NCBI RefSeq assembly: GCF_021462225.1
Contig: NC_061804.1
Location: 3,945,001 to 4,009,000 of the forward strand
DNA: 64,000 nucleotides
Direction: 5' to 3'
Source of the DNA: Girardinichthys multiradiatus
Taxonomy: Eukaryota; Chordata; Actinopteri; Cyprinodontiformes; Goodeidae
Part shown: piece after piece, positions 2,125 to 59,883 of the stretch
Layout: each line of letters starts with the position of its first letter
Numbering within the stretch: the stretch's first letter is position 1
Made by a program: the position numbers and the translations under genes
Notes under the pieces: generated by a model
What the model was told of the DNA's origin: nothing
The model's database searches: none
What the model saw: the letters and a program-made list of their open reading frames with translations, nothing else

Positions 2125-2507
2125 TATATTCAGATTCGGCTGCACGGTGGTGCAGTTGGTAGCACTGTTGCCTTGCAGCAAGAAGGTCCTGGGTTCGATT
2201 CCTGGCCTGGGGTCTTTCTGCATGGAGTTTGCATGTTCTCCCTGTGCATGCGTGGGTTCTCACCGGGTACTCCGGCTTCCTCCCACAGTCCAAAGACATG
2301 CCTGTTAGGTTAATTGGTCACTCTAAATTGACCTTAGGTGTATGAATGAGTGTGTGCGTGGTTGTTTGTGTGTTGCCCTGCAATGGACTGGCGATCTGTC
2401 CAGGGTGTACCCTGCCTCTCGCCCATAGACTGCTGGAGATAGGCACCAGCTCCCCCGTGACCCACTATGGAATAAGCGGTAGAAAATGACTGACTATAAA
2501 CAGATTC
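2125..2507 (+). repeat. tRNA-derived SINE, copy 1, with target duplication
   Basis: The SINE body is 2138-2494. It has a perfect polymerase III A box (TGGTGCAGTTGG, 2148-2159) and B box (GGTTCGATTCC, 2192-2202), so the head is tRNA-derived. The body continues with the common fish sequence ending in a LINE-like tail (AATAAGCGGTAGAAAATGAC). Flanks 2125-2137 and 2495-2507 agree at 11 of 13 bases and are the likely target-site duplication. The head has drifted from a real tRNA, so this is a retroposon and not a tRNA gene. Copy 2 lies at 9140-9470. Confidence 0.88.
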
Positions 2508-2646
2508 ATAGTCACAACAGTCAACTCCCTTTCATTGGTGCTACCTCAGATGTTTCATAAATTACTTGAATTCCTTAAATTACAGACATTTTCATTTCCT
2601 AAGTTAGAAGTAACAGGAACAAATAGTTAAAATAAATTTTAGAACC

Positions 2647-4280: not shown

Positions 4281-4309
4281 CCTAGGAATTCAGATGGAAA
4301 GCAGCAGTG

Positions 4310-4990
4310 AGGTACTTCCAATCAAATGAATTGATGAGCAACAGTGTGAGCATGTCTATAAAAGCAGGGGTCGTGGCAGTTTGCAGGTGTGGGATACCTT
4401 AATGCCAAGATGGAAAGACATCAGCAATGACATCAAAAAAGAAACTGGGGCTGCCCATTAGTGTGAAAAGGTTACAAACTTCCTGAAGTTCATCATTCTA
4501 CACAGAGAAAGATTATTCACTCTTGGAAAAGGTTGTTGTAGAAACTTTATTAAAGAAAGAAGAAAACCACTTTTTTGAGCATTATTTGACGTAAGTAAAG
4601 ACAATGAAGAAAATTGGGAAGTGAGGTCGGACCCCCTGCAGCATGGCTAACAATGATAAGCCCCATGGAGACACAGTCATAAGGATGCTTTTTTTTAAAG
4701 TTTGTTGCTATCAACTCACAGACCATGTAAACATCATGTTGTTCTGTTTCATAATGTTCTATGAATGTGGTTTCTAATGGAATGTACCAAACAGTCTCTG
4801 AAGCAGGTCACAGAGTCAAAGTGACCTAGATAAAGTTCTTGCATGCATGTTCACACATGCCAGTGTGCAATCAATACAGAAAGCATTTTAGACAGCTGTC
4901 CAGGAGTGGGTGTCCCAGAAAATTCTCCCCATGGTCAGACTATACAATGATATAATTGCATCTGAGCGAACAACCAGAATTTCCAGACTC
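4310..4990 (+). mobile_element. Tc1-like transposon remnant, interrupted
   Basis: From 4310 to about 4545 the sequence follows the usual 5' part of a teleost Tc1-like element: a GTCTATAAAAGCAG leader near 4353, then a decayed transposase start with GGAAAGACATCAGCAATGAC and GAGAAAGATTATTCAC. It resumes at about 4888 (CAGGAGTGGGTGTCCCAG). Roughly 345 bases of unrelated AT-rich DNA lie between. Stops and frame changes mean no functional transposase. The 5' terminal repeat is replaced by the end of the 2647-4280 element. Family assignment is from memory. Confidence 0.65.
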
Positions 4991-6857
4991 TAAAAATCCA
5001 TGAAAATTGATAAAGATAAACTTTTGTAGTTTCTGTGTTGTTAATTAAAACTAGTAAATAGCCTGAATAATGTAATTTTTTATCAGATTGAGCTAACTTC
5101 AGAAGCAGTCCCAAACATTTTTCTGTATATCAGAAAAACTCTGGGTTTGTCAAAGAAAAAACAGAAGGCTGTAAACATCCAGTTCCTTTTAATTGTGGAA
5201 AAATGTTTCCTCAAGAGACTCTTTGTTTTGTCCTCTGGGTTCCATCTCAGAGGTCTTCAATGCTTTCTAGACATAGAAAGGAAGTACAACAGGAAGTACA
5301 GCTGGTCAGTCAACATGACTCCATCAAAAGCATGTATTTTTTCTATTCCATTGAAATGGATGATACAGTTAGGTCAGGGTTCATGAAATGTTATTGGTAA
5401 TGTTTTCCCTCTTAAAGTCCAAAATGGGACCCTTCTATTGAAGTCTATTTCCCTTATATTCAAGCACTTTCAACCTTGGACATGTTCTTTGAGTAATTTG
5501 CAGTGTTGCAAATGTAGCTGTTTTGGGACAAGTTTATCTGTGCTTTTAATGGGCCATGAATCATTTTCCCACAGTTCTCTGGGATACCTGGGGCGTTGTT
5601 TTCATAAAAATGTACCCAAACATTGTAGAGTTTTATCACATGTAAAACATGCAACCATAATGGAGATTTCCAGCATCTCCTTCAGTGTTGCTCAGACCCT
5701 TCTCCGTCTTTTCATAAATTGTGAGGAAACGTCCAGTTTTTGTCACTCCACAAATGGTTTACAGACATTTTCTCCACTTTTAGATGACCGTCTTCACTAT
5801 GGTCTGTGCTATCTGTGAAGGCGTGGACATTATTTTTCATCCTTCTCCTGTCTGATACTTTACAGCAGTAATGCCCTGTGATTCCTTGTCTGTTTAGCTG
5901 TTGGGTATCTGAACTTCATTTCTGGTTTAACAGAGTCCATTTAAATTAACGAAGTTGTGCTATATATAAAGGCTAAATAATAAAAGCAATGTAAAGTTTT
6001 TTCTAATATCTCTCTATTTTGTACTTCCGGTTAATCCTGCCTCGGCTTGTTAGGGGGCTGGTTCACATGTCCAGCGTTGAGGGGATGAGAGGCACATCAG
6101 ATCCTGGTCACAAGTTGTTTCTACCTTTTATAGCGATTAATACACATATACACTAATTTTCAAAAAAATAAAGCAGACTAATTCAATCTTTTTAACAGCA
6201 CAGTGAGGTTTGCATTTACCTCAAATTTGTTCCTTTTGTTTGTACTTCTAAAAGATATTCTAAGGACACCAAATTGGATCTTGGGAAATAGCAAACAACA
6301 AATACATTTACAAAATTTTGGTATCTTTTGATTCATTGTGGAGGATTTTATATTTATCTTTTCTGTCCTCTTTTTTCCTCAGTACCTCTCATGGGATTAT
6401 AAGGCTTTTCCAGGTCAAATGAGTTACATAATCCCTTCAGCCTGTTGTTCCTGTGTCCCATGGTTCCCTCCCTGATGGGCATTACTGGAGAGTCTCTATG
6501 GGGAGGTGTCATTATAATAGTAGCCTGATTGTGCTTTCAGTGAATAGTGTCCTGAATGGAAAACAATTCATCACGAGGCAGCTCAGCCACAGACAAGATT
6601 GAGATTGGCTTGCCAGATCTTTGTTGTATAGCCAAGAACCAACAGCGTAACCAAGGAAACTGAGTATGGAGTTCATCAGGAGAGAAAAACAAGTCAAGTC
6701 CTAGTTTTTAAATGCTGTCCACAACCCAGAAAGTTTTCCTGTAACACTTTAGAGTCTGAACAGCAAATAAACCAGAAGCCTCCCACTGGAACAAAAACTA
6801 GAAGAAACTTCTGAAAATGTTGGCATGATGGTCAGTTACCTAACCTGTGTTTAAAAT
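4991..6857. other. Non-coding, unassigned
   Basis: No gene is recognised. A 126-codon open frame at 5438-5818 has no recognisable domain, is Ser/Cys/Leu rich and overlaps frames on both strands, so I treat it as chance or as a decayed repeat. Confidence 0.45.
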
Positions 6858-7045: not shown

Positions 7046-9127
7046 TATATACGTAGTTGGTAGGCTTACGTTACCAGTTCATAGGTATTTTCACCACCAA
7101 GTTCATAAGAACTTGATCTCTATGTCAAAACAAAAGAATTACACTATACATATAAGTTGGAATATGATATGTAACTATTGACCTGTCCGTTTGTCAGTTA
7201 GCAACATGAGCGCATAGAAGCAGGTACCTCACAGCACATTCATACTCGCAAGCAACTCCCAAGATTGTCTGGCATGTAACATTTTAATGTTTTTATTTAA
7301 TATATTCAGAAAACATGGGAGACCACATCATGGAGGATGTTCAAACCACAACATTTTATTCATCAGAATTATTTATTTTAAAAACTTTTCACCCGAACAA
7401 GTTTATGCACAAAGCACCACAATGATAGCTGAATACCAGACAGAACTGTCACATGATGATTAAACAGAAGCTATCAGCTCAACTCTGTAGTGTGCAATCA
7501 TAGTTAATCAGCTCATCTTAAATTGTACATTCAAGCTATACTTCAAAGTTTCAAAGACGCCAAATGCCACCAAATCTTTAAATCCGTCAGAAAGCTTCAT
7601 TTAGGGGCAATCCTTATGGAATAGTATAAGCAAATAGATGCTTGGAGATGTTGGAGACAGAGATTCAGAAAATTCTGAGTCAAAAATTTAGAGCCAACCT
7701 TCCATTTTTCTTCTGTTTCTGTTTTTATGGCAGTTGGCAAACAACTTTCAGAGGCATTACTGTCACCTTCTAGATTGTAGTATGGATCAGAAGCTGTCGT
7801 TTCATCATATTCTTTTTATTCCTGTTTCTTTAAAAAATAAAAATAAAAATCACCTTGCATTTTTGTCAGTGTCATCACCACCTTTCCTTGCGTTGTTGCT
7901 AATTTCCCCACCTGGATCCACTCATCTGATTATCTCCAGCACAACCGGCAGATCCCTTTCTACTCCTATAGGTTTAGCTCTTTTTCACATTCTGTTGGAC
8001 TTTTCCAGTCTAGTAGTTTTACTGTCAGTAAGTTGCTGTATTTTTTTCTGTTTGCTTTTTTATCTCCTGTGCATTTATGTTTCATCTTGCATTAAGACAT
8101 AATCTAAATATACAATTATGGCAGACTTTTCAAAAGTCTGACACATTGGTAACTGCACTTTGTGGTCAGATTTGAGGAGACTGTTAGTCAGATTTCCATC
8201 ACTGCAATGCGGCAGCTGGAGGTTATTCAAATACAATACAAAACTTATGTTAATTTTTATTTACGCACTTATACAAACCATAATCAGAGTTTGAAATTTA
8301 AATATCATGAAACCTTAAAATTTACTTTATTTTGAAAAACCAACACCGCCAGCTCCTTCCTGCCTGCGAAGCTGCTACAGTTATTCGTAGAGGGAGGCGA
8401 AAGAATTCCACATCCGATTCCGATCTACTGGAAGTAACAAAAATTAAACTGTGAACGCCATGAATGATAAAACTGAAGTGGTAAAAAGGGAGGCATTAAA
8501 TCAAGGCAGTGTATTAAAACGGGCCACTTTAAATTTGATAACCTTAATATTTACAACATTAATATTTACAATGTTATCATTTTAATGACTTCCAAATTCA
8601 CAGATTCTAATTTTTGCAGAGGCGATATTAATTAAAAGTTGGTTATTATTGCACTAAATTTGACCATGTTCAGTATTTCACATCTTCAATTGATTTCAAG
8701 TTAATTTTTGTTACTTTGACCCCTCATACCAAGGAACTTGGAGTGGACATATATTGCATTTGAATGACAGTAATGTAGTCAATTAATATAACTTTTGCCT
8801 TAATGCTTAATGTTTCAGATACGCTTTGAACAGCATGACGTAACCCCACCCCCACCAGCCAACCGCCGCGATTAAAAAAAAAACCTAGAGGAAACCCTGT
8901 ATTATATTTTGTTTTTGTTGTAACATTTGGATTTTTCATAATCCTTTGAAGAATAACATTTATTTTAAAATTTGACTTTGCTTCTTGATTTCATTGGTTT
9001 CATAGAAATGAACTTTCATTTTCTTTTTTGAATGAGCATTTTATAATTTTCAGGGGGTTTTTTGTTAAGCAATTTTTTTTCATTGTGCATTGAGTCACTA
9101 AGTTAAAAAGAAATTTTAAGAAGTCAA
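7046..9127. other. Non-coding, unassigned
   Basis: AT-rich DNA with no recognisable gene. The open frame at 7734-8102 (122 codons) encodes a Leu/Ser/Phe-rich chain without a known domain and is probably spurious. Confidence 0.45.
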
Positions 9128-12071: not shown

Positions 12072-12339
12072 GCAATGAATAAATATGGAGTCAAGGTGTC
12101 TGGCCCTGGTGGCACCTCCAACCGGCCAAAGCTGAGTGGCCCCGAGCTGCTCTGCCAGGTCAAGGAGAAGGTAGAAGTCACCACTTTGACTGCGGATCTT
12201 CAGCCTTTCTCTGCATTGTCCTGGGCCCCCCTGCTTCTGCCGCCACAACAGCTGACCTCCGACCTCGGGCCATACAAGAGTTGTGCTGTGGTGTCTTCTG
12301 CAGGGTCGCTCCGCAACTCTGGACTAGGCAAAGAGATCG
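12072..12339 (+). CDS. st6gal1: st6gal1 coding exon 3 (start of catalytic domain)
   Basis: The exon encodes residues 187-275 plus one base. The acceptor is CTTTCAG ending at 12071 and the donor ATCG/GTGAGT at 12340, phase 1. It contains the MNKY start of the catalytic domain, C214 in LLCQV, and the first half of sialylmotif L (SCAVVSSAGSLRNSGLGKEI), including C257. The following intron cuts motif L and carries the Gypsy/LINE nest. Confidence 0.93.
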
Positions 12340-12528
12340 GTGAGTAAAGTGTATTTTGATATGTCTCCCCGTAATACAGCACTTTCCCAGGAAACTCTCT
12401 GTTAGGTGTTAGGAAAACATGATTTAACAGAATTATAAATGTTATCTTTAATAAAAATGTAATGCAATCAAAAGTAGTGTCAAAACAATCGTGAAACTGC
12501 AGGTGTGAAATCAGCAGCAGCCGCTGTG

Positions 12529-12651
12529 TGTAGGATCTCTGCTCCTTCCCTTCTGGTTGGTTCTGGCAGCTCATTGTCTGCAGCTGCAACGCATTCTCCT
12601 AATGAGCTCATGGGCTCCTTAAGGTAGCTGCTGATACAGACCTTTGCTGGA
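12529..12651 (+). repeat. Gypsy 5' LTR, upstream (U3) part
   Basis: These 123 bases match 22864-22986 with two differences. The part ends in GACCTTTGCTGGA (12639-12651), the first copy of the LINE target duplication. A TTAAGG motif at about 12619 lies about 30 bases before CTGGAACATA in the uninterrupted LTR, a plausible TATA-equivalent for a start there. It is separated from the rest of its LTR (18242-18542) by two LINE copies. Confidence 0.9.
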
Positions 12652-13183
12652 AACAGAGAATCAGGAAAGAGTGGCAAAAATGGTGGGATGAAGAAAAGAA
12701 AGGAAGATGGTTTTACAGAATCAACAAGATAGTAGGAGAAGTAAGAACTGGAAGAAGGAGTAGAAAAGAGGAAAGATTAATTACAAGATTAAGACTAGGA
12801 CATACAGGACTTAATTCTACATTGTTCAAGATAAAGAAACATAATACAGGAAAATGTGATCATTGTGGAGAGGAGGAAACAATAGAACATGTAATATTGA
12901 AGTGTCAGAAATATGAACAAGAAAGAACAATTTTAAGGAGAGAATTTGTAGGTATTAAAGAAAATTTTATATTGAGAGATACTTTGCGAAGAAGTTTAGG
13001 TAGCAAACATATTCAAATTATAATTAGATTTTTCAAAAGCACTAAATTAATAAATAGAATTTAATTGTTGTAATAGTAAATAAGATTTAAAACCATGAAG
13101 AAACACACTCCATACCAGTCGGTGGCGGTAATGCACATCATAACGTTATTTGCCAACTGCCAAAAAATAACACAGAAGAAGAA
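12652..13183 (+). mobile_element. LINE copy A: 5'-truncated I/Nimb-type LINE, 3' end only
   Basis: Homologous to the last part of the LINE ORF2 seen at 59756-63618 on the - strand. It keeps the region after RNase H, including the zinc motif CDHCGEEETIEHVILKC (open frame 12822-13064), then a 3' UTR with CCATACCAGTCGGTGGCGG and a GAA-repeat tail. It begins AACAGAGAATCAGG, showing heavy 5' truncation. It is flanked by GACCTTTGCTGGA at 12639-12651 and 13184-13196. It differs from copy C (22987-26523) at about 14 of 530 bases. Confidence 0.92.
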
Positions 13184-13299
13184 GACCTTTGCTGGAGGAC
13201 TACGTCGAAGAAGAACGGTTTTGGTGCGGCGCGGGAAAAACAAAAATAGAAATATATCGGATTCGGAAAAGGTGGATTTGGGCATAAACTGGTATGTGA

Positions 13300-14505
13300 A
13301 TGGTTCGGTTGGAAATGGAGACAGGAAATGAGGAAGACATGGATTTTGAAGGGTGGACGCCAGCTGGGAGAGGAAGAGGGAAAGGACGTGGAAGAAATAA
13401 AATAGATGAAGGAAAGGGAATTGGTGATATCCAAGGTAGCAAGCGAGAATTGGAAGGAAGCAGTTCAGAAGAAGAAAGGATAGTTAGGAGGAAAGTTATG
13501 AGGGAGGAATTTAAAATAATATTGAAACTTAAGAACGAGGAAGAACAGGATAACATCAGCCCCATTGTGTTGTCAAGAAAGATAAAAAAGAAAATTGGAG
13601 ATGTTGAAATGGTAAAGATTTTGAGAGATGGAAACTTATTGGTAGTTTGTAAAAATGAAGAACAAAAGAACAAGGCTTTAAAGGTGGATAATATCTGCAA
13701 GAAAACGGTGTTGGAGAAAAAAATCATGGGAGAAAATAAAAAAATTAGAGGAGTGATTTATGGGATCCTCTAGATGAAGATCTTGATAAAATTAAGAGAA
13801 GTATTATTGGTGCAAAAGTGAATAACTTGAAGAGATTGTCAAAAACAATAAATGGAGAAAAAGTAGGAAGTATGTCAATCTTCATTGAATTTGACGAAAA
13901 AGAGTTGCCACAAAACATCAAAATAGGTTATCTTAGCTTTCAGGTTAGACCTTATATCCCTCCACCACTTCGTTGTTTCAAATGTCAAAGGTCACATAGC
14001 AATGGACACATAGCAGCAGTTTGTAAAGGGAAGCAGAGATGTCCTAAATGTGGTGAAGATCACAAGTTTGAAGAATGTAAAGAAGAAGTACAAGAAAAAT
14101 GTTGTAACTGTGGAGGGCAACATAGAGTTACGTATGGAGGATGTGAAGTAAGGAAGAAGGCAAAAGAAATACAGATTAAAATGACTAAAAACATAAGCTA
14201 TGCAGAAGCAGTTAAAAATGTGAAGGAACAGAAAACAGGAAAGATTGAACAAATAGCAAATCAAATTCCACAGCAAAGAAAAGTACAGTCAGAAGAAAAT
14301 TACAATATCAGTAGAAAAACTAATATTATTCGTAGCATATGTTATCAACTGTACTGACCAAGCCAAGCATAAAACTGAGAAGATTAAAATAATAGTGAGA
14401 GGAGCTGAAAAGTTGTTGGGGTTTAAGGAGGGATCGTGGGAGAACATAAATAAAAAGTTGGAGGTAGATGGGAGACAAGGACCATCTGGTGAAAGTACAT
14501 GTTAA
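13300..14505 (+). pseudogene. LINE copy B ORF1 (gag-like, zinc knuckles), broken
   Basis: The first open part, 13300-13773, is basic and charged with a Gly/Arg-rich stretch (GRGRGKGRGR); the likely start is the ATG at 13300 or 13315. The frame shifts near 13770. The second part, 13818-14357, holds three CCHC-type zinc knuckles: CFKC...C, CPKCGEDHKFEEC and CCNCGGQHRVTYGGC. The first is widened by a few residues against a standard spacing. A second small indel near 14300 moves the frame again, and the original frame ends in TAA at 14503-14505, overlapping the ORF2 ATG at 14499. Such ORF1 proteins bind the LINE RNA. Confidence 0.85.
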
Positions 14506-17500
14506 TATTACAATGGAAGGCAAGAAGTTTAATCGCTAACGGACAAGAATTTAAAGGTTATATTGATAGTCTTGAAGAACAACCAGAAATGATTTGTGTT
14601 CAGGAAACATGGTTAAAAACAACATTGGATTTTGTGATAAAAGGATATGATGGTGTAAGAAGAGATCGACAGGAGAGAAGTGGAGGAGGATGTGGAATAT
14701 TTATTAAGCAAGGGATACAATATCAGGTATTAGGGAAAGGGAAAGAACTTGAATATATAGTAATTGAGATATGGGAACAAGAAGGTAAATTTAAAATAAT
14801 AAATTTTTATAATCCATGTAAAACATTGTCAATTGAAATAATGGAGGAGTTAAATGAATATTTGGAAGGGAAAGTAATTTGGTGTGGAGATTTTAATGCA
14901 AATAGTACATTGTGGGGTAATTGTAATGATAAAAATGGACAAGTTATAGAAGAATTAATGGAAATAAAAAATCTAGGATGTATCAATGATGGGAGGGGAA
15001 CAAGAATCAATGTAAGAACAGGGATGGAATCAGTTATTGATTTAACAATGGTTTCAAATGGTTTAGCTGGTAGTTGTGAGTGGGGCATTGATAAAAAATC
15101 AACAATAGGTAGTGATCATTATCCCATTACAATAAGAGTAGGATTAACTTTAAATAATAGGAATATAAGTGTCAATAAAAAACTACATTTTAATAAGGCA
15201 GACTGGACTAAATTTAGATACTTGAGTCAAATAAACTTAGAGAAAGTAGATATGAGAATGGATATAAATGATGTAAATTAAAAAATTTGTAAGATAATCA
15301 TGGAAGCAGCAGATAATTCTATAAAGAAAGCAGGGTGTAAAAGTAATAAGAAAATGGTACCATGGTGGACAAATGAATGTAAAGAAGCAATAAAGTTAAG
15401 AAATAAAGCATTTAAGGTACTAAAAGGAAATCCAATTTATAAGAATTTAATTGATTATAAAAGAAAGCAAGCAATAGTAAGGAGAACTATTAAGAAGGCA
15501 AAAAGAGAATATTGGAGACATTTCTGTAGCACAATAGGGAAAGAAACAAAAATAGAAAAAATTTGGAAAATAATTAAAAGAATGAATGGCATAAAGAGAG
15601 AGTTTGAATATCCTATATTAAAAATAAATAATATAAATATAGTAAAAGATGAAGATAAAGTTGAAATATTGGCAAGAATATTTAGTAAAATTAACAGTTC
15701 AAATAATATTAGTGAAGAGGGAAGAAAAGGAAGATAAAATACAAAACTTATATATAAAGATGTATTACAGAGTGTTGAAGAAACAAATAATCTGTTAAAT
15801 GTTGAATTTACAAAAGCCAATAGCCTTAACATCAAATCTATGTAAAATAATGGAAAAAATTATTAATAGTAGACTAGTATATTATTTAAATAATAAAGGA
15901 TATATGTCAAAGTATCAAAGTGGTTTCAGAAAAGGGAGGAGTACTAATGATCCAATGCTATGCTTAGAGCATGAAATTAGAAGAGCACAGGTAAATAAAG
16001 AAAGTGTAGTGGCTGTATTTTTTGATATAGAAAAAGCATATGATATGATGTGGGTGGAAGGATTATTAATTAAATTACAAATACTGGGCATTAAAGGGAA
16101 AATATTTAAATGGATCAAAGACTTTTTAACAAATAGGAAAATACAAGTTAGAATTGGGGAAGTGATCTCAGGAAAATATATAGTAGAAAATGGAACTCCA
16201 CAGGGGAGTATTATAAGTCCGTTATTGTTTTCAATTATGATAAATGATGTATTTAAAGATATTGGAAAAGTAATGGGATGTTCACTTTTTGCAGATGATG
16301 GAGCTGTTTGGAAAAGAGGAAAAAATGTAGATTTCATTGTAAAGAAATTTCAAGAGGTTATTATTGAAATAGAGAAATGGGCGTTACAATGGGGATTTAA
16401 ATTTTCAGTTGAAAAAACCAAAGTAATGATATTTAATCAGAAAAAAATAAACAAGGAAATAAAATTTTAATTATATAACCAAGAATTAGAGCAAGTAAAG
16501 TATATAAAATTTTTAGGATTATGGTTTGATGAAAAACTAAAATGGAATATACATATTCAAAAAGTTGTTGATAAATGTAAGAACATTTTAAATATTATGA
16601 GATGCTTGGCTGGCAGTGACTGGGGAGCAGATAGGAAATGACTAAAACAGATTTACACAGGAATGATAAGATCTAACATAGACTTTGGTTGTTTAGTTTA
16701 CGGTTCAGCAGCTAAAACACATCTGGTTAAATTAGATATTATCCAACATCAGGCATTAAGATTATGTACTGGAGCATTTAAAACTACACCAACAGCAGCA
16801 ATAGAAATAGAAATGGGAGAAACTAGAAATAAATTATTGGTTAAATTTACAAGGTAATAACTTGGATCATCCAATTTGGGAAATTTTAAATCCATGTTGG
16901 GAAAAAGAAAAGAAAGAAATGAAGAGTTTTGGATGGACAATTGAAAAGAAAGTAAAAAAATTTAAAATGATTGATTTAGAAATTAGTCAAACATCACCAA
17001 TATCAATTATACCACCATGGATTCTACCAGAAGCAACAGTAGATATGTCAATAATGGAAAAGAAGCAAGATAAATCTTCCATAGTAGATAGTTATTCAGT
17101 ACAGATACATTTAAATAATTATTATAGATATATTCAAATATATACAGATGCATCAAAAATAAATGGAAAAGTAGGAATAGCTTTTGTAGTACCAGAATTC
17201 AATCTAAAAATAGGAAAACGAATTACAGACGACTTATCAGTAAACACAGGAGAAATATTGGCTATATTATTAGCTTTACAATGGGTAGAAGACATAAAAC
17301 CATTAAAAACAGTCATTTGCTCAGATTCAAGCTCTGCATTATTAAGTTTAAAATATAATCAATCAGATAATAGGATGGACATTTTATTAGAAATATTTCA
17401 TACATTATACAGAATACAAAAAATGGGCTTGATAGTTATATTTGTGTGGGTTCCAGCACATATTGGAGTAGAAGGAAACGAGAGGGCAGATAAAATAGCA

Positions 17501-17983
17501 AAGAGGATAATTCAAAATCCTATTAGTTTTATAGTTAAAACAAGTAAATCTGAGGGAAAGAGTATTGTTCAAGGAAAGCTGATGGAAAAATGGCAAAAAA
17601 GGTGGGATGAAGGAAAAACAGGAAGATGGTTTTATAAAATTCAGAAGATAGTAGGAGAAAGAAGAAATGGAAGATGAAATAGAAAGGAGGAAAGAGTGAT
17701 AACAAGGTTGAGATTTGGGCATACAGGACTTAATTATACACTTTTTAAAATTCAAAAGCATAATACTGGTAAATGTGATTACTGTGGAAAATATGAAACA
17801 ATAGAACATGTTATATTAGAATGTCATAAATATGAAAGAGAAAGAAGATATATGAGAAGAGAGTTTGAAGGTATTAAGGAAAAGGTTAATTTATTAGATA
17901 TTTTGAGGAAGAATTTAGGGAGTAAACATGTACAAATAGTGATTCGTTTTTTAAAGAAAACTAAATTATTTCATAGAATTTGA
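14499..17983 (+). pseudogene. LINE copy B ORF2 (endonuclease, RT, RNase H), broken
   Basis: The endonuclease lies in 14499-15281 (QETWL, GDFNANS, GSDHYPI). An in-frame TAA stops it at 15279-15281; the same frame reopens from 15300 to 15737. Compared with the intact ORF2 at 59884-63618, about 85 codons around the start of the RT are deleted between roughly 15800 and 15825. The RT core follows in 15799-16470 (FDIEKAYD, TPQGS, FADD). RNase H is in 16862-17677 (IYTDASK, GEILAIL, CSDSSSAL, PAHIG...D). The zinc motif CDYCGKYETIEHVILEC ends the protein. Several more stops and frameshifts separate these blocks. Confidence 0.88.
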
Positions 17984-18241
17984 TTATAGTAGATAAAATT
18001 GTGAAAGTATGGAGGATATAGAAGGGTAGAATACAATGTAATGTGTAAGTATGTCTATTTGTATATATACATATAGGTAAGATATATTTATTTATTTAAT
18101 TTGTAGAATTAAATATATATATATAAATAGATAGACCGACACGAACCACACTCCATACCAGTAAGTGGCGGTAATGCTACTAAACGTTTGTTGCCAACCG
18201 CCAATAAAACCAACAAGAAAAAGAAGAAGACCTTTGCTGGA

Positions 18242-18542
18242 ACATAACCTCAGTTATGTGGACTCCTGTCTGTCTGCCTATCTGCCTACCTGCCTGCCAA
18301 CATCTGGTAATACTCCCTCCTAAGGACTGCACTGTAAATATTCTCATCACCAGTACTCTCTTTCTCTCTCCTTGGATTCCTGGGTTTACCTCCTCCTCCT
18401 CTGGCTTCTGGACAACTCCAGCTCAAGATTCCTTAAACAAAGTCTACAGTAGAAATAAACCTCATTTACCGTCTTATCCTGTGTGCTGAGTCTGTTTCAT
18501 CCTGGTTTTGTTCTACTTCGACTATCTAAGCAATTCATGATA
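18242..18542 (+). repeat. Gypsy 5' LTR, downstream (R-U5) part
   Basis: The segment matches 26537-26831 and ends CATGATA just before the primer-binding site. Bases 18237-18246 (CTGGAACATA, which includes the last five bases of the LINE duplication) are complementary to the primer site. An AATAAA polyadenylation signal lies at 18454-18459. Relative to the 3' LTR it carries an 8-base duplication of the CTGCCTAC repeat near 18280 and lacks two bases near 18511. Confidence 0.9.
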
Positions 18543-18543
18543 G

Positions 18544-18553
18544 TATGTTCCAG
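18544..18553 (+). promoter_or_regulatory. Gypsy primer-binding site, self-priming type
   Basis: TATGTTCCAG follows the 5' LTR by one base. It does not begin TGG, so it does not fit a standard tRNA primer. It is the exact reverse complement of CTGGAACATA in the LTR (18237-18246 and 26532-26541). Tf1 and related sushi elements are known to prime reverse transcription with the folded-back 5' end of their own RNA, and this arrangement fits that. Confidence 0.72.
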
Positions 18554-18562
18554 CCATCTAAC

Positions 18563-19539
18563 ATGTCGAAGAACAATTCAGATGATGAACAGACTTCCTT
18601 AAAGGAACGCCTACAATCTACTGAAACCATGCTTCAACAGCTACTGCAACAACAAAGGACTACGGATTCTCATCTCACAGAACTTGGTGGTATGGTTCAT
18701 GCTTTAAGCGAAATCATAACCAAACTCTCACCTGCCTCTTCCAATCTTCCAGTTCGTTTAGAGAATCCTCAGCCACCCACAATTCTATCTTCTGGGATCC
18801 GAGAGCCTGACTTCCGTCCGTCTGAACTGTTTGATGGTAATCCTAATAACTTTGGTGGTTTTTCTCTCCAGTGTGAATTAGCATTTAGTCGTTCCCCCTC
18901 CCTTTTCCCTACTGCTGCCTCCAAGATTACTTATATTGTTACCTCGCTAAAGGGATCTGCTCTGCCTATTTGGCATCTAACCCTGTTGAGTCTCTTAGTT
19001 ATGCCATGTTTGTCAGTCACTTCAAGAGAGTCTTCGATCAACCACTCCAGCAGGAGGCAGCGGCTAAGAAGATACTCACCCTCAAACAGGGAAGGAGAGC
19101 ATTGGCGGAGTTCGCCGTCGACTTCCGGGTGGCAGCGCAGGAGGTGGGTTGGGATGAAGCGGCACTCAAGGGTATTTTTGTTAATTCCCTTGCAGATCAA
19201 GTAAAGGACCAGTTGGTTTTGAGAGATGAACCCGAAAGACTGGATGAATTAATCAACCTATCGATCCACATTGACAACCGTCTAAGAGAGAGACAAACAG
19301 AAAGGAACTACAATTCACAGTGGCAACACTCTCTGGCGCCTCGAACCACTTTCCTCAACGCACCCACTTCCTCGTCAGAGGGATCTGCGGAACCGGAACC
19401 GATGCAGATTGGTCACACTCGACTCTCCCCAGAGGAATGACAACGTCGCTTTGAGGGTGGTCTTTGCCTATATTGTGGACAAGGAGGACATTTTATCACA
19501 AGATGCCCCAAGAAGGGAAAAGAGAGGGCTCGTCAATAG
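18563..19539 (+). pseudogene. Gypsy gag, broken
   Basis: Likely start ATG 18563; an in-frame ATG at 18545 lies in the primer site. The N-terminal part has a Gln/Leu-rich coiled-coil-like stretch (residues about 10-35) and then the capsid-like region of sushi Gag. A frameshift near 18970 moves the reading to the frame of 18970-19440. A TGA at 19438-19440, probably from a CGA arginine codon, precedes an in-frame zinc knuckle CLYCGQGGHFITRC (19465-19506). The original frame ends at TAG 19537-19539. Gag would have formed the particle and bound RNA. Confidence 0.85.
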
Positions 19540-22500
19540 GTCAGGGGACTTTGATGAGCTGATATCCCATTCTTCCCCTGTCTCTCGTCTGTGTTTTCCG
19601 GTCACTATTATTGTTGGCCAAGAGAAGTTTCCTGTTGACGCTTTTATTGATTCTGGTGCTGAACAGAATCTTATTTCCTCGGATCTGTTGATAAACTTCA
19701 AATACCCTCTCAGCCTCTCAACCATTCCCTTTCTGTCACTGGCATCACTGGTCAAACCATGTCTCAAGTGAGATTTAAAGTGCCTCAGCTTCACATCATC
19801 ACCTCTGGTAACCATCATGAATGGGGCGAGTTCTTTGTTGTCTCTTCCATCTCTCCACAATTAGTTTTGGGGTTTCCTTGGTTGCAGAAACATAATCCTG
19901 CTATTAATTGGGTGGAGGGCAGAGTAGAGAGATGGAGTAATCTCTGTCTCCAGAACTGCTTAAGAACTGCTGTCTCTCACTCTATCAAACAACTCAAACC
20001 TTCTGAGCCTGTTGATCTGTCCAAAGTTCCACCTGAATACCACAATCTCGCATCTGTGTTTAGCAAACAAGGGGCTCTTTCTTTACCTCTGCATCGTCCC
20101 TATGACTGCTCTATTGATCTCCTCCCAGGCGCTCCGCTACCATCCAGCAGACTCTTTAATCTCTCCGGACCCGAGAGAAAGGTCATGAAAGAGTACTTTG
20201 AGGATTCTTTAGCATCTAGGATCATTCGTCCATCTACCTCCCTTGTTGGTGCCGGATTCTTCTTTGTGGGTAAGAAGGACAGCACATTAAGACCCTGTAT
20301 TGATTATAGAGGATTGAATCAAATCACTATTAAAAATAAAAACCCACTACCACTTATTGATTCCATACATGAACAATTACATTCTGCCAAGATCTTCACT
20401 AAACTCGACCTGCGCAATGCTTACCATTTGGTCCGGATCCGAGAGGGTGATGAGTGGAAAACGGCTTTCAAAACCCCCCTAGGACATTTTGAGTATTTGG
20501 TTATGCCTTTCGGGTTGACTAATGCACCCGCTGTTTTCCAGGCTCTTATTAATGATGTTCTTCGTGACTTTCTCAACCTCTTTGTTTTTGTTTATCTGGA
20601 TGACATTTTGATTTTTTCCCAGGACATAGAACAACATCGCCAGCATGTCAGAACAGTTCTCCAGAGGCTTTTTGAGAATCAACTCTTTGTTAAAGCCGAA
20701 AAGTGCGAATTCAGTGTCACATCTGTGTCTTTTGGGTTTTATTTTTGAGACAGGCAGGTACAGAACTGAACCCGAGAAGACCAAGGCAGTGGCAGAGTGG
20801 CCTACTCCAACTGATCGCAGGCAACTTCAAAGGTTCTTGGGATTTGCAAATTTTTATAGGAGGTTTATAAGGAACTACAGTCAGGTCACTGCACCTCTCA
20901 TTCAACTCACCTCCTCTCTGAAAACGTTCCATTGGACTCCTGAGGCAGAAAGGGCATTTGGGGAATTAAAGACTCTATTTTCTTCAGCGCCCATATTGAC
21001 CCATCCTGATCCATGTGCACAATTTATTGTAGAGGTTGATGCTTCTGACATTGGAGTAGGGGCTATTCTTTCTCAACGGTCTCCTCTGGATGATAAGGTA
21101 CATCCATGTGCCTATTTTTCTCGTCGCTTGTCTCCAGCAGAGCAAAATTATGATGTGGGCAACCGTGAACTTTTAGCCATCAAGTTGGCGCTTGAGGAAT
21201 GGCGTCATTGGTTAGAGGGTACTGAAGTCCCTTTTCTCATTTGGACTGATCATAAGAACCTCTCCTACATTCAAAATGCCAAGAGACTTAACCCCAGACA
21301 AGCCCGTTGGTCTCTGTTTTTTGCTCGTTTTCATTTTTCTATCTCCTACAGACCCGGTTCCAAGAACATTAAGCCTGACGCTCTCTCTCGCCGGTTCTCT
21401 CATTCTGACCAACTCAAGACTGAAGCTTCCATCCTACCGGATTTTTGTATTGTGGGCGCCCTCACCTGGGCCATTGAAAAGGACATCAGGGAGGCACAGA
21501 GGTCCAAACCTGACCCAGGTACTGGCCCAGTGGGCAAGCTGTTCGTTCCCAACTCTGTCGTCAAAGTTCTGGATTGGGTGCACAACAATAAGCTGACTTG
21601 TCATCTTGGAGTGACTCGTATGATCACATTTACCAAAAGGTATTTCTGGTGGCCGACTATGAATCTCAACATTAAAGATTTTGTTGCAGCTTGTCCCACA
21701 TGTGCTCGAAACAAGAACACTAATCAACCCCCTGCTGGTCTTCTTCAACCTCTGCCCACCCCTAACCGCCCCTGGTCCCACATTTCCGTTGGTTTCATCA
21801 CTGGTCTCCCGCCATCTGACGGTAACACAGTCATCCTTACTGTTGTTGACAGATTCTCTAAAACAGCCCGTTTTGTTCCTTTACCCAAGCTTCCGTCTGC
21901 ATTGGAGACTGCCCAACTCCTGGTTCTCCATGTTTTCCGCATCCATGGCATACCTTTGGACATTGTTTCTGACCAAGGCCCGCAGATCATCTCGCAAGTT
22001 TGGAAGGAGTTTTGCAAAGCTCTTGGTGCCTCCGTAAGTCTTTCGTGTGGATACCACCCCCAATCTAATGGACAGACAGAAATATGCAACCAGAAACTTG
22101 AAGTTGCCTTGAGGTGCGTAATAAATGACAACCCCTCTTCTTGGTGCAAACATCTGACATGGATCGAATATGCTCACAACACACATACTTCCTCTGCTAC
22201 TGGTTTGTCCCCCTTTGAGGCTTCACTGGGCTATCTACCCCCGCTGTTTCCCAGTGTTGAATCTGACATCCTGGTCCACTCTGTTCAGCATTATGTTTCC
22301 AGGTGTCGTAGGATCTGGCAACAGACCAGGAGGACCCTCCTACGCACCCTGGAACAAAATAAGAGGTTCGCTAACCGTCACCGTTCTGCTGCACCTGTCT
22401 ACCGCATCAATCAGAGAGTCTGGCTTTCCACCAGGAATATTAAATTAAAAGATACTTCTAGAAAGTTGGCCCCCCGTTTCATTGGCCCTTTTCTCATCGA

Positions 22501-22852
22501 GAGGATCATCAACCCATCTGCGGTGAGACTCAAACTACCATCTTCCATGCACATTCACCCTACTTTCCATGTTTCCCAGATCAAGCCAGTCTCGGAAAGT
22601 CCCCTGAGTCCTCCCACCAAGCCCCCTCCTCCTGCTCGACTCATTGATGACCACCCTGCATATACGGTCAATTGTATCCTGGATGTTCAGCGTAGGGGGC
22701 GTGGTTTTCAATATCTTGTGGATTGGGCAGGATATGGACCTGAAGAGAGAACCTGGGTTCCCCGTTCTCACATCCTGGACCCTGCTCTCATCACGTCCTT
22801 TTACAAACGCCATCCTGAAAAGCGTTCTGGATTGCCTGGAGGCAATCGTTGA
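19409..22852 (+). pseudogene. Gypsy pol with chromodomain, broken
   Basis: Protease motif [12 protein letters not shown] is near 19643-19678. Frameshifts near 19750 and near 20720 split the frame. The RT has YLDD at 20593-20604; RNase H follows (VEVDASD, then a TDHKNL block). The integrase has an N-terminal HHCC finger and the later D and E of the catalytic triad (VSDQG, NGQTE). The first catalytic position, usually Asp in a DF-TGLPPS context, is Gly (GGT at 21791-21793). A C-terminal chromodomain (about 22644-22810, [17 protein letters not shown]) marks it as a chromovirus; in this group the domain binds modified histones and steers integration. Confidence 0.9.
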
Positions 22853-22860
22853 GGGGAGGG
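22851..22860 (+). promoter_or_regulatory. Gypsy polypurine tract
   Basis: GAGGGGAGGG, three bases upstream of the 3' LTR start at 22864 and overlapping the end of pol. It is the expected primer for plus-strand DNA synthesis. Confidence 0.8.
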
Positions 22861-22863
22861 TAC

Positions 22864-22986
22864 TGTAGGATCTCTGCTCCTCCCCTTCTGGTTGGTTCTG
22901 GCAGCTCATTGTCTGCAGCTGCAACGCATTCTCCTAATGAGCTCATGGGCTTCTTAAGGTAGCTGCTGATACAGACCTTTGCTGGA
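22864..22986 (+). repeat. Gypsy 3' LTR, upstream (U3) part
   Basis: Starts TGTAGGATC after the polypurine tract and ends with GACCTTTGCTGGA (22974-22986), the left copy of the LINE C target duplication. Two substitutions separate it from 12529-12651. Confidence 0.9.
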
Positions 22987-25900
22987 AATTTTTATAATCC
23001 ATGTAAAATATTATCATTTGAGTTGATGGATGAATTAATGGGATACTTAGAAGGAAAAGTAATCTGGTGTGGAGATTTTAATGCTAACAGCACATTATGG
23101 GGAAAATGTAATGATAAAAATGGACAAGTTATTGAAGAAACAATGGAAATAAAAAATTTGGTATGTATAAATGATGGAAGAGGAACAGGAATTAATGTAA
23201 AAACAGGTACAGAGTCTGTGATTGATTTAACAATAGTATCAAATTGTTTAGCCAATAACTGTGAGTGAGACATTGACAAAGATACAACAGTAGGCAGTGA
23301 TCATTACCCCATTAAAATCATAACAGGAATATTACTAAATAACAGGATTATATAAAAGATGGAACTTTAATAAGGCTGATTGGGAAATTGTTTTATATTT
23401 AAGTCAAAAGAAATTGGAAGAAATAGATGAGTCAATTGATATAAATAGTTTAAATATAAATATCTGTAAAAAAAATCTTACAGGCTGCAGAAGAATCAAT
23501 AAAAAAAGGAGGAAGAAAGAACGATAAAAAAATTGTGCCATGGTGGACAAAAGATTGTAGTGAAGTAATAAAATTACGAAATAAAGCATTTAAAATGTTA
23601 AAAAGTAACCCAATTTATCAGAATCTAATTGAGTACAAAAGAAAGCAGGCAAAGGTAAGAAAGATCATTAAACAAGCAAAAAGAGAATATTGGAGAAACT
23701 TTTGTAATACCGTAGTGAGAGAAACAAAAATTTATCAAATTTGGAAAACGATTAAAAGAATGAATGGTATTAGAAAAGAATATGGATATCCTTTATTAAA
23801 AATAGATAATATAACTATAACGGAAGATAAAGAAAAAGCAGAAATATTAGCTAAAACATTTAGTAAAATTCATAGTTCAAATAATATTAGTGAAAAGGGA
23901 AAGAAAGGTAGGGAAATCACAAAGATGAAATATAAAGAATTAATGAAAAATAATGTAGATACAAATAAATTAATAAATGAACCATTTACACAAGGAGAAT
24001 TGAACTTTGTAACCAGGAAAACAAAAAATACATCACCTGGAAAAGATCAAATGTACTATACGATGATAGAACATCTTAATGACAAAGCAAAAGACAAAAT
24101 ATTAGAATTATACAATAAAGTCTGGGAGGAGGGAGAGCTGCCACAGAGCTGGAAGGAAGCAATAATTATTCTAATAGCTAAACCAGGAACAGATTACACA
24201 AAACCAGAAAATTATAGACCGATCGCATTAACATCAAATATTTGTAAAATAATGGAAAAAATGATTAATAATAGATTAACATATGATTTAAATATTAATG
24301 GGTATATATCTAGAAATCAAAATGGGTTTCGAAAAGGGAGAAGCACAAATGACTCTGCATTATGTTTAGAATATGAAATTAGGAGAGCACAAATAAACAA
24401 AGAAAATGTAGTAGCTGTATTTTTCGACATAGAAAAAGCTTATGACATGATGTGGGTTGAAGGATTATTAATTAAATTAAATAAAATGGGTATTACTGGA
24501 AAAATGTTGAACTGGATTAAAGATTTTTTATCAAATAGAAAAATACAAGTAAGAATTGGTCAAGAATTGTCAGATAAATATATAATAGATAATGGTACTC
24601 CTCAAGGAAGTATTATAAGTCCGTTATTGTTTTCTAAAATGATAAATGATGTATTTAAAAATATTGGTAAGGACGTCGGTTGCTCACTATTTGCAGATGA
24701 TGGAGCTATATGGAAAAGAGGTCGTAATATCAAATTTATTGAAAAGAAAATACAGGATGAGATTATTAGAATAGAACAATGAGCAAATCAATGGGGATTT
24801 AAATTCTCAGTGGAAAAAACAAAAGTAATGGTGTTTACACAGAAAAGGAAAAGAGAAAATATCAAACTAAAATTATACAATCAAGTTTTAGAACAAGTAA
24901 AAAATATAAAATGTTTAGGTATATGGTTTGATGAAAAAATTATATGGAAAGTACATATAGAAAAAATCATAGATAAATGCAAAAAAATATTAAACATTAT
25001 GAGATGTATGGCTGGTATTGATTGGGGAGCAGATCGAACATCATTAAAAATAATTTATACAGGATTAATTAGATCAAATATTGATTATGGAAGTATAATT
25101 TATGGATCAGCAGCAAACACACATCTTATAAAATTAGACAATATACAACATCAAGCTTTAAGAATTTGTACAGGAGCAATCAGAACCAGTCCAATAGCAG
25201 CACTCCAGGTAGAGATGGGAGAGATGCCATTAGATCTACGAAGGAAACAGCAATAAATTACTGGATAAACTTACAAAGCAATAATCCGGATAATCCCACA
25301 CGTGATATTTTAAAACCATGCTGGGAAAAAGAAAAAAAACAAGTTAAGAGTTTTGGTTGGATTATCAATAATATAGCAGAAGAATTTCAAATATATGAAA
25401 AAGAAATAAGTTCAATGTTGCCTTTGCCAGTAGTGCCACCGTGGCTGTTACCAGAAGCAGTGGTGGATATGGCGTTGATGGAAAAGAAAAAGGATCCAAA
25501 ATGTAGATTAGATTCAAGTATAATACAAGAATATATAAACAATTACTATCATTATGTCCAGATTTACACAGACGCATCAAAAACAGATGAAAAAATAGGA
25601 GTAGCATTTGTAATACCAGAATTTAAAATAAAAGTAGGAAGGAGAATTACAGATGGATTATCAATATATTCAGGAGAATTATTAGCCATATTGTTAGCAG
25701 TGCAGTGGGTGGAGGATATAAAACCATTAAAAACAATCATTTGTTCAGATTCAAGTTCAGCATTATTAAGTTTAAAACATAATCATTCAGAGGGTAGACC
25801 AGACATTTTGTTGGAAATAAAACATACTTTATTTAGAATACAAAGAATGGGATTAATATTAGTGTTTTTATGGGTACCAGCACATGTAGGAGTTAGAGGG

Positions 25901-26404
25901 AATGAGATGGCAGACAGGATGGCAAAGAAGGCAACACAAAACATTAGTTTTATAATAAATATTAGTAGGTCAGAGGCAAGAAATATAATTAAACAGAGAA
26001 TCAGGAAAGAGTGGCAAAAAAGGTGGGATGAAGAAAAGAAAGGAAGATGGTTTTACAGAATCAACAAGATAATAGGAGAAGTAAGAACTGGAAGATGGAG
26101 TAGAAAAGAGGAAAGATTAATTACAAGATTAAGACTAGGACATACAGGACTTAATTCTACATTGTTCAAGATAAAGAAACATAATACAGGAAAATGTGAT
26201 CATTGTGGAGAGGAGGAAACAATAGAACATGTAATATTGAAGTGTCAGAAATATGAACAAGAAAGAACAATTTTAAGGAGAGAACTTGTAGGTATTAAAG
26301 AAAATTTTATTTTGAGAGATACTTTGCAAAGAAGTTTCGGTAGCAAACATATTCAAATTATAATTAGATTTTTCAAGAGCACTAAATTAATAAATAGAAT
26401 TTGA
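22987..26404 (+). pseudogene. LINE copy C ORF2, 5'-truncated and broken
   Basis: The endonuclease remnant reads to a TGA at 23266-23268, where the intact copy has Trp. Frameshifts follow around 23345-23470. The main RT block is 23535-24782 (FDIEKAYD, TPQGS, FADD), ended by a TGA in place of Trp; 24810-25256 continues it. A frameshift near 25250 leads into 25166-26404, which contains RNase H (IYTDASK, GELLAIL, CSDSSSAL, PAHVG) and the CDHC...H...C zinc motif at the C-terminus. No functional product is expected. Confidence 0.9.
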
Positions 26405-26523
26405 TTGTTGTAATAGTAAATAAGATTTAAAACCATGAAGAACCACACTCCATACCAGTCGGTGGCGGTAATGCACATCTTCAAGTTATTTGCCAACTGC
26501 CAAAAATAATACAAGAAGAAGAA
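22987..26523 (+). mobile_element. LINE copy C: 5'-truncated I/Nimb-type LINE
   Basis: The copy begins inside the ORF2 endonuclease region (AATTTTTATAATCCATG, encoding NFYNP) and runs to the 3' UTR and GAA tail. It is flanked by GACCTTTGCTGGA at 22974-22986 and 26524-26536. It belongs to the same subfamily as the intact copy at 59756-64000, with very similar protein blocks, and is younger-looking than copy B. Confidence 0.93.
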
Positions 26524-26536
26524 GACCTTTGCTGGA

Positions 26537-26831
26537 ACATAACCTCAGTTATGTGGACTCCTGTCTGTCTGCCTATCTGCCTGCCAACATCTGGTAATAC
26601 TCCCTCCTAAAGACTGCACTGTAAATATTCTCATCACCAGTACTCTCTTTCTCTCTCCTTGGATTCCTGGGTTTACCTCCTCCTCCTCTGGCTTCTGGAC
26701 AACTCCAGCTCAAGATTCCTTAAACAAAGTCTACAGTAGAAATAAACCTCATTTACCGTCTTATCCTGTGTGCTGAGTCTGTTTCATCCTCTGGTTTTGT
26801 TCTACTTCGACTATCTAAGCAATTCATGATA
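26537..26831 (+). repeat. Gypsy 3' LTR, downstream (R-U5) part
   Basis: It continues the 3' LTR after LINE C, beginning ACATAACCTCAG and ending CATGATA, followed by the CTGTG target duplication at 26832-26836. An AATAAA signal lies at about 26743. It matches 18242-18542 apart from the two indels and about one substitution. Confidence 0.9.
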
Positions 26832-27029
26832 CTGTGATCATAGCAGCGGTTTAGTCAGATAAAACCTCTACTTGTTGACTGTTTCTGCTGAAGTAGGTAT
26901 CTGCCAAAAATAAAAAGGCATTGTGTTGAATGTTGGTTCCTCTTTTGGTTATTTCCGGGAAGAAGGGAATGTGTTGCATCAGTAACTATAAATTTGCCTT
27001 TCTCTGAAACTGTTTTGATTTAACCACAG

Positions 27030-27127
27030 ACTCTCATGATTCAGTGCTACGGTTCAACGCTGCGCCCACCAACGGCTTCGAGAAAGACGTTGGCTCCAAA
27101 ACAACCATCCGCCTCATTAACTCGCAG
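27030..27127 (+). CDS. st6gal1: st6gal1 coding exon 4 (second half of sialylmotif L)
   Basis: The acceptor is AACCACAG ending at 27029 and the donor CGCAG/GTAAAC at 27128. It completes the split codon to give [20 protein letters not shown]..., residues 276-308, ending TTIRLINSQ. This half of motif L contributes to CMP-sialic acid binding. Confidence 0.94.
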
Positions 27128-30100
27128 GTAAACCCACAAACGGTGACCGATTATGGTTACTTCTTTATTACATTCAATCTATATCTGTGGTTGAACGTAA
27201 TCACACTCACTGCAGAAACTACAGTCATGGCCAAAAGTTTTAACATGTGTAGACGTGTTACCACCTTCGCATCTTCAAATTTAGATCGAATGGAGATTAG
27301 GTGCAAAGAATTTTATCAGCTTTAAAACATTTTCTTTTACTCTGTTTGGTTGCCCAAACTGATTGGTAAACTTCAATTCAGTAGTCATGTCATGAGCCCA
27401 TGTGAAGCTGTAAAAGACTTCAGCTGAGATCACCCAATTGGTCCAATTAGACTGATTGCTTTAGAGGAGGAGAAGATGTTTGCCTTCTGATATTTAATGG
27501 ATAATGGAACACAGAGAAAAAGATAACATCTCAAACTGTTTCATTGTCTGTTCTAAATGTTCTAAAGTATTAAGTGATTCTAGTGAGCAGCAAACCAAGG
27601 ATGAGGCTACTGCAAGATGAACTGGGTGCAAAGGGTCAGTTCTTAATGCTGCTGAAGATTAGTTTCTTATTGTTACGATGGATAAAATAAAAAAATGAGG
27701 AAATGACCAAACTGATTGACAAACATGAATCTGAAGTTCAAGCATCTAAGTGATAGTAAATGCTAATATGAAGTTTCAGATTGTTGCAACGCTTTCACCA
27801 ATTTTAATTCAGTTAAAACTGCGTTGTATACAATGCTCATTTTTATTGAAACCCTTTTTTTTGTTTTGTTTTGATAAAACAAATCCAGATAAAGTTGGAT
27901 CAAACAGTAGTCTGTATTGTTTAATGTAAGTGATTCCATATTTCCCCTGGGCACTGAAAAATAATTTTCATTAAAACTGTAAGAGGCCCAAAAAAATATC
28001 ATTTTAAACTGAATTAAATGTTTCATTAACAAAGCCATCTGTCTTCCATATCTAAGCCCAGGGCTCAAAGTTTTAGACTGAAAACTCTGAAAAAAACTAT
28101 TACAAATGTGCAGAAACATAGAAGCAGTGATTAAGAGTTGCAGAGTGTCCAGAACACACTCGAACCATCTTGACCCTAAGCAGGTCAGCAGGTGTCTTGA
28201 GTGCATCTAATAGCACTGAAGTGAAGACCTTTGGGCAAGAAGGGTTGTAAAGAGGCCACTTTCGTCCAACAGAAACATAAGTCTGAAATTCTGCATAAAG
28301 TGTCAGGATGAATGGCAACAGATTGGTGCAAAGTTATTCTCCTTCATGAATCCTCCTTCTGATCTGGAAAAAGTGAGAGTACCATAAGACCTTTGTGGAG
28401 GTGCAGCATTCAATCAGCCACACATCAGAATTGGACATTTTGGTTTTTCCCCCTTGATCAGGTCTAAACGGTGATGTGTATATGAAATACAACAAAATTT
28501 GTTTGGGTATTAAATGCATCAAAACTAAAATCCCCCACTATTTTCAGACTATAAGCAATCAAATATCAGCATGTACTTTCATACACTTGTGAGTTTATTC
28601 AAATATCAGAACGGTTAATGAGACATGCTGTGATGCAGATGCGTTGCAGATTGGATATTTACATTTTTTATTTACTGTTTGATTTGGAACTATTTTTATC
28701 AAAAAAACCCGCTGAACATTTTTTTCTTCTGTCATGTTTGAAAGAACACAGTCAGTCAAAATCAGAGCAGCTTAGACTTAAAAGAAAACCCGAAATTGCT
28801 CTCAAACTAAAAAACCTGATCAATAGATCTCTATTCCCGATGATGCCAACATCAAAGGATCCTGATCCAATCCACGGTTAATGGGTAGAATTGGGAAGAA
28901 CCCCACTCTCTTGGATGAGAAGCAAGCCCAGAACCCGGCCAAGAAGGGTAAGATGGAGCACCTTGTCATAAGGTGCTATGGTGGCTCAAAGATCACAACA
29001 TTGAAATTTTGGACATGTGCTCTGGGAACTCTGCAGATGTTTGCCCCAATGAGAACATATAGTCAGTTCTGAAAAAGCAGACGTAGAAACAACCCAACTT
29101 TACCAACTCAAACAGTGTGTCTTCATCAGTCAGGTTTGGGAACAGAAGTCTATATTCAGCATGTCGGAGAATTATAAAAGTTATGAAGTATCAACTTTGG
29201 AAATGTTGACTCTTTAAAGAAATTACAGTAGTTGGATTTGCAAAAAGATGCAAACGAAACTAAAACTGAAGCTATAAACACAAGACATTTCCAACTGCAG
29301 AAACATTGGCACGTACAACATGAAAAACTGTTTGAATAGGTCACTGTTACACTAAACTGCCTTTCAGACTAGAAGTCTGTTTTAATTCCAAATAGCTGAC
29401 TGGTTGCTATAGCAACAGTCAAACAGTTTCTCCATGTGTCACGGAGGGGTTTTGGAGCGGACCGAAGCGCAGACAAGAGCTTGGGAGCAGCATTTCAAAA
29501 AAGCAGTCTCTCAGCTTTAATCTAAAAAAGTCAAAACTTAAAACAAACACTGCAGGTACTGAACAGGGTCGAGATCCAAACACTTACACTACAGACACTG
29601 CAGGAACATGGAGACTCAAGGCAGGGACGTGGATAAAGGGTCAAGTTGTAACGCAAGGAACCCACAAAACATAATGAAACAAACCAACTAATATGCAGAG
29701 AGAAAACAAAGGCAGGTAATCAAAGGAACTGAGGACAGGTGAGGCAAGGAGGCAGGAAGGCAGAGGGAACAGGTGAACCTAATACAAGTAATTAACAAGA
29801 CACCAAGCAGACCTAAAACAAAACTATAAATAAAGATAAAAATAAAGCATAAAAATCAGGGATAAACATGATCTGAAGGAAACTGAGAAACTGAAGGGAA
29901 CATAAGAAACACCAAATCTAAGAACGAACAAGGAACCCGTAAAGCAAACCAGATTACAGAGTAATGAAACCTGACACCACACAGACTGAACAGACAGGAA
30001 GGGAAGCAGAGAACATGAGGACTAGGATGTAAACAATAAGTAAACACAACCTAACCAGAGGGGCTGGAGAAATATGATCATTAGTAAACAAAACAAAACA

Positions 30101-59755: not shown

Positions 59756-59883
59756 TTCTTCTTCTTCTTCTTCTGTGTTGTTTTTTGGCAGTTGGCAAAT
59801 AACTTGAAGATGTGCATTACCGCCACCAACTGGTATAGAGTGTGGTTCTTCATGGTTTTAAATCTTATTTACTATTACAACAA

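Follow-up and report, generated by a model that had tools for sequence, protein, structure and literature searches.

How did three LINE copies come to lie at the same position in both LTRs of a single Gypsy element? The question is raised by the window analyzed here, a stretch of 64,000 nucleotides from the genome of Girardinichthys multiradiatus. We put the probability at roughly 0.8 that the LINE is fixed at one nucleotide of the Gypsy LTR, in 30 places, through an APE-type endonuclease that would recognize the LTR sequence and a GAA tail that would anneal to the nicked strand. This reading builds on the junctions themselves, the duplication of 13 bp, the constant register and orientation of the insertions, the distinct 5' ends of the six that were read at both ends, and counts that exceed both chance and a single control position.

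The Gypsy element and the LINEs within it all lie on the plus strand. The element is bordered on both sides by CTGTG (12524-12528 and 26832-26836, read from the letters), which is the pattern that one Gypsy insertion would leave. Its 5' LTR holds two LINEs in tandem, A and B, between a left part (12529-12651, 98.4% identical to 22864-22986) and a right part (18229-18542, 96.5% identical to the 3' LTR by BLAST). LINE A (12652-13183, 532 bp) is 5'-truncated, starting at position 3705 on the scale of a further copy, D, and is 97.7% identical to D and 97.0% identical to LINE C. LINE B (13197-18228, 5032 bp) belongs to another subfamily, about 25% different in the tail region, and its frame is broken at several points. 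The internal part of the Gypsy (18543-22863) has matches to RNase H, integrase, and chromodomain (Pfam, on the open piece 20630-22852). The 3' LTR consists of a left part (22864-22986) and a right part (26524-26831), and between them lies LINE C (22987-26523, 3537 bp), which is also 5'-truncated, starting at copy D position 686, and is 97.3% identical to D. LINE D itself, of the same family as A and C, is found at an unrelated site on the minus strand (59765-64000) and runs off the end of the window.

The position shared by the insertions is defined by the 13-mer GACCTTTGCTGGA, which ends the left part of each LTR. The earlier note had placed it at five coordinates around the three LINEs, and all five copies are exact and in place: at 12639-12651 to the left of LINE A, at 13184-13196 common to LINEs A and B, at 18229-18241 to the right of LINE B, and at 22974-22986 and 26524-26536 on the left and right of LINE C. 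Every one of them marks a junction of LINE and LTR, and a scan of the window that allowed up to two mismatches found none beyond the five (shuffled sequences average 1.82). The junctions also agree with the note on a common orientation of A, B, and C with GAA tails directly before the duplicated site, so that the order is LTR left part, 13-mer, LINE, GAA tail, 13-mer, and LTR right part. The second 13-mer is a target-site duplication, since 43 uninserted LTRs elsewhere in the genome run through with a single copy. Since AGA is present in the tail as well as in the target, the 3' edge can be placed only to within 3 nt, and the 5' edge is ambiguous by 1 nt for A and C; within this ambiguity the duplication is 13 bp long in A, B, C, and three insertions found outside the window (L034, L038, and L041), with one changed base in the right copy at L038.

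Those outside cases come from a query that consisted of the left LTR part, contained no LINE, and was run against the genome to which the window belongs (1.15 Gb). Scoring 40 of 807 candidates, which are the window's own and 39 others, gave 47 distinct LTRs outside the window. Among these, 43 are empty with a single 13-mer, one is rearranged, and three (L034, L038, and L041) hold a LINE exactly after the 13-mer, in the orientation seen in the window and each with its own 5' end and 13-bp duplication. The LTR stretches, which include 72 kb of the internal Gypsy region when overlapping pieces are each counted, contained no other convincing LINE match; the sole other one is weak, at L045, and is to an AT-rich part of B. 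The query needed an intact left part, and so insertions in the first 120 bp of the LTR could be missed. This is a partial form of the count of insertions per LTR position that the earlier note had suggested, and all three LINEs in the 47 other LTRs are at the site.

Furthermore, the junction of tail and LTR can be searched directly. The sequence GAAGACCTTTGCTGGAACATAACC has 38 exact matches genome-wide, including those of B and C in the window, and its reversed control has none. A recognized LINE tail lies beside all 30 of the 38 that were checked for one (27 match a pattern of LINE tail plus site, two adjoin a listed tail, and one is copy B). The pattern of tail plus site identified five further tails that have the 13-mer with another right flank, copy A among them, and L038 and L057 are two more cases at the site, in which a base is changed or the tail is long. 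An even distribution along the LTR, which had been named as grounds for giving up the idea, is not what we see: a control junction at one other tail-compatible position of the LTR has a single match, compared with 38, and one point mutation in an LTR would be enough to produce it. The empty site has 291 exact matches genome-wide, and therefore some 9 to 12% of the sites with an exact match are occupied (30 or 38 filled, 291 empty). Two pairs of filled sites lie a few kilobases apart on one strand, on C2 at 25431347 and 25435779 and on C6 at 4742606 and 4748619; each is possibly a Gypsy with both LTRs filled, as in the window.

A survey from the side of the LINE used a 98-nt tail query from which the target sequence was excluded. 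The best 40 of 928 candidates were scored, and 48-base flanks were read for 38 of these 40 tails, the other two being already known. Eight of the 40 lie exactly at the LTR site (L034, L038, L057, L059, L061, L062, L081, and L084), and a ninth, L064, is at the same position in a diverged LTR. The flank of L071 has the same first 12 bases as that of L064, with the TCTGTTGCTGGA start, and then leaves the LTR. No flank of these best 40 of 928 tails matches Gypsy anywhere else. In a pattern search of the forward strand, 22 of 151 tails are followed by the site, which is a 10^6-fold to 7 × 10^4-fold excess when set against 329 to 5000 possible sites; the pattern has a gap limit of 25 and misses longer tails. 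The reverse-strand total of 514 tails was left out, as that listing repeats one tail at several ends. The suggestion that this LINE prefers the site, with a survey of LINE targets as the check, is thus borne out as far as this partial survey goes, by 38 exact junctions (30 with a recognized tail), three of three LINEs in LTRs, and eight of 40 tails.

The preference is strong and is not exclusive. Copy D lies at unrelated sequence, and among the 40 best-scored tails there are 30 outside both the LTR site and the TCTGTTGCTGGA start of its diverged form, so specificity is partial; strict specificity, with nearly all copies at the target, does not describe a LINE with 8/40 and 22/151 on target. 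There is a second recurrent target, ACTCACTGCCAGAGTGTTG, in four of the 40 flanks (L060, L065, L069, and L082, the last with one changed base). It has 15 exact junctions genome-wide, of which the four that were checked adjoin a LINE tail, and it has no long motif in common with the LTR site. Equal flanks occur for still other sequences, and some of these cases may be duplicated loci. In an exploratory analysis of 25 distinct targets (39 flanks, being the 38 that were read and that of copy D, minus 14 that repeat a target already included), the motif YTGR at flank offsets 4-11 was present in 11 of 25. Shuffles gave 3.0, and a region further downstream had it in 5 of 25; the motif was chosen post hoc. 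The flanks of L071 and L085 both reach GTTGTCGGTGGTGA after a first stretch, and this sequence may represent the 5' terminus of a further LINE, which would mean more tandems. DNA-pattern scans of collections of viral contigs and genome contigs gave no match.

In the mechanism that we propose, the endonuclease would nick the lower strand just to the left of the 13-mer, at 5'-TCCAGCAAAGGTC/TGTATC-3', to within 3 nt. The GAA-repeat tail of the LINE RNA would anneal to the nicked strand, and the ...GAAGA tail would serve as template for reverse transcription primed by the exposed TC(T) end. A cut in the upper strand, 13 nt downstream and after GGA, would follow. What might be recognized instead of the 13-mer is local DNA structure, in the form of an ACATAAC/GTTATGT hairpin beside the site, or the chromatin of the LTR. 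A 7-bp stem does begin directly after the 13-mer, an equal or better fold is reached by 8 of 200 shuffles on one strand and by 25 of 200 on the other, and five of the seven stem pairs are preserved in the diverged LTR of L064. The z-scores are nevertheless weak (-1.8 and -1.3), and the 13-mer between A and B has no hairpin after it, which makes structural recognition an unlikely basis for the choice of site.

The nick might also matter less than the primer that it provides, in which case any nick ending in TCT would suit the GAA tail and the LTR site would merely be accessible. AGA is common to target and tail at the 3' junctions of A, B, and C, as such priming would have it. There are, however, 286 AGA sites in the window Gypsy when both strands are counted, yet the eight of 40 tails found in the Gypsy family share one of them, and the control AGA position gave its one match; we regard choice by primer matching as quite improbable.

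A different type of explanation concerns the number of events. One LINE insertion could have been carried from LTR to LTR by gene conversion, or multiplied together with the Gypsy that contained it, and the shared site would then represent a single event. The LTRs of the window element differ at only three of 408 aligned sites, and A and C belong to one family, both of which fit such spread. Against it, the six insertions for which both junctions were read have different 5' ends, which on the scale of copy D are 3705 for A, 686 for C, 2811 for L034, 2454 for L038, and 3905 for L041, and B is of another subfamily. If A had been copied from C inside the Gypsy, the difference between them should not exceed that between the LTRs, but 19 differences separate A from C in 532 sites (Fisher P 0.004 against the LTRs), or 13 in 507 with the tail excluded (P 0.042). 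In one alignment there is furthermore no change shared by A and C relative to D at which B agrees with D. The same alignment has one site where B differs from A, C, and D, and a second alignment has one D-only site, where B agrees with D owing to its different placement in that alignment. Spread by conversion or copying is accordingly very unlikely, and the 5' ends and the divergence argue in particular against gene conversion from C to A. The different 5' ends, the roughly 25% divergence of B, and the excess of the A-C difference over that of the LTRs show that A, B, and C each inserted separately, although duplication could still account for some of the 38 junctions genome-wide. Nested repeats do pose problems for assembly, but that alleles or LTR copies were wrongly joined here is scarcely credible: the same junction occurs at 38 places, and the C12 tails described below suggest another tandem.

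Separate targeting of one LTR nucleotide also offers an account of the tandem in the window, where the duplication separates A from B. The duplication keeps the target sequence, and hence a second LINE can land there, giving the order A, 13-mer, B. For R1 elements, whose tandem copies are separated by a 14-bp duplication, further copies are thought to enter at the 5' end (PMC2718515). With this precedent, and since A appears to be the younger of the two, it is likely that A inserted into the duplication flanking B on its 5' side. On C12, tails with the site are found at 25401607 and 25401717, a distance of 110 bp, and the LTR comes after just one of them; judged from the pattern positions, this pair is probably a second tandem. 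Template jumping as the origin of the A-B tandem was set aside, as the 13-mer lies between A and B.

ORF2 of copy D (59884-63624, minus strand) is open for 1246 amino acids and contains endonuclease, reverse transcriptase, and RNase H, the layout of the I/Nimb clade, to which the earlier note assigned the LINE and of which it is a candidate member. The endonuclease is APE-type (Pfam Exo_endo_phos_2, 2.1e-18), and its structural model has a pLDDT of 94, with the endonucleases of L1 and TRAS1 as the best structural matches; that of R1 ranks lower, and general repair AP endonucleases match too. The named protein matches of the LINE are fish reverse transcriptases, some of them labeled jockey. The open ORF2 of D, together with its identity of 97-98% to A and C, indicates that this family was likely active recently. 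LINE C has three changes to a stop relative to D, and the Gypsy internal part has several frame breaks in the ORF list although its LTRs differ so little. The decay of LINEs B and C perhaps exceeds what the low LTR divergence suggests, and defective source copies or homogenization of the LTRs could explain this.

Comparison with known systems helps to place these observations. We know of no fixed LTR target for I or Nimb. Tx1L targets another transposon, which is a DNA transposon and not an LTR element. The Tx1 group, including Tx1 of frogs, is likewise APE-type and has some target-specific members (PMC4640811, PMC3747384), but the LINE described here differs in carrying RNase H and in its named matches. 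RNase H is listed for LINEs of the I group (Ingi, I, Nimb, Loa, R1, and others; PMC4640811), with which our LINE shares the layout of endonuclease, reverse transcriptase, and RNase H. Togen LINEs of fish also have a repeated target, in their case (TG)n microsatellites; they are related to NeSL, a clade listed under restriction-like endonuclease (PMC4640811). The R1 LINEs of arthropod 28S rDNA are alike in their APE-type endonuclease and fixed target, in tandem copies with one duplication between them, and in additional insertions away from the target (PMC2718515). The duplication is constant and short at one sequence in the Gypsy-LTR LINE, at 13 bp compared with typically 14 bp in R1 (PMC2718515). 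R1 targets rDNA, whereas here the target is an LTR and the on-target share is 15-20%. In its behavior, the Gypsy-LTR LINE works like R1 at an unusual target.

The known targets of LINEs include rRNA, tRNA, and snRNA genes, spliced-leader exons, microsatellites, telomeric repeats, and, in general terms, other transposable elements (PMC8869645), and among the literature matches listed, titles and abstract openings name no LINE that targets an LTR. This LINE bears on how a random LINE becomes specific. With partial specificity, an open ORF2 in copy D, and 291 empty and about 30 filled targets in one genome, the step from broad to fixed targeting is measurable. A target inside the LTR of another element also bears on transposons as mutual landing places and on their mutual disabling. 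More tentatively, and at slightly worse than even odds, what we see is a vertebrate lineage of LINEs turning into a specialist that parasitizes another retrotransposon, with an endonuclease tuned to one LTR sequence of an abundant Gypsy family, about one in ten of these sites filled, and tandem re-entry, at a stage between random and R1-like insertion.

Other features of the window surround the nested elements. Exon-like stretches at about 12080-12340 and 27030-27130, on either side of the Gypsy, resemble what we take to be a sialyltransferase gene, and the Gypsy would therefore lie in an intron of that gene. An old piece of a related LINE tail (74-82% identical) is present at 7705-7788 on the minus strand. 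By eye, an apparent reverse-transcriptase fragment of a different LINE type lies at 37668-38492 on the minus strand, and open reading frames at 46930-51707 in the ORF list, which resemble gag, reverse transcriptase/RNase H, and integrase, suggest a further LTR element or an endogenous retrovirus. A connexin gene at 55925-56767 is 94% identical to its counterpart in Characodon lateralis (Goodeidae).
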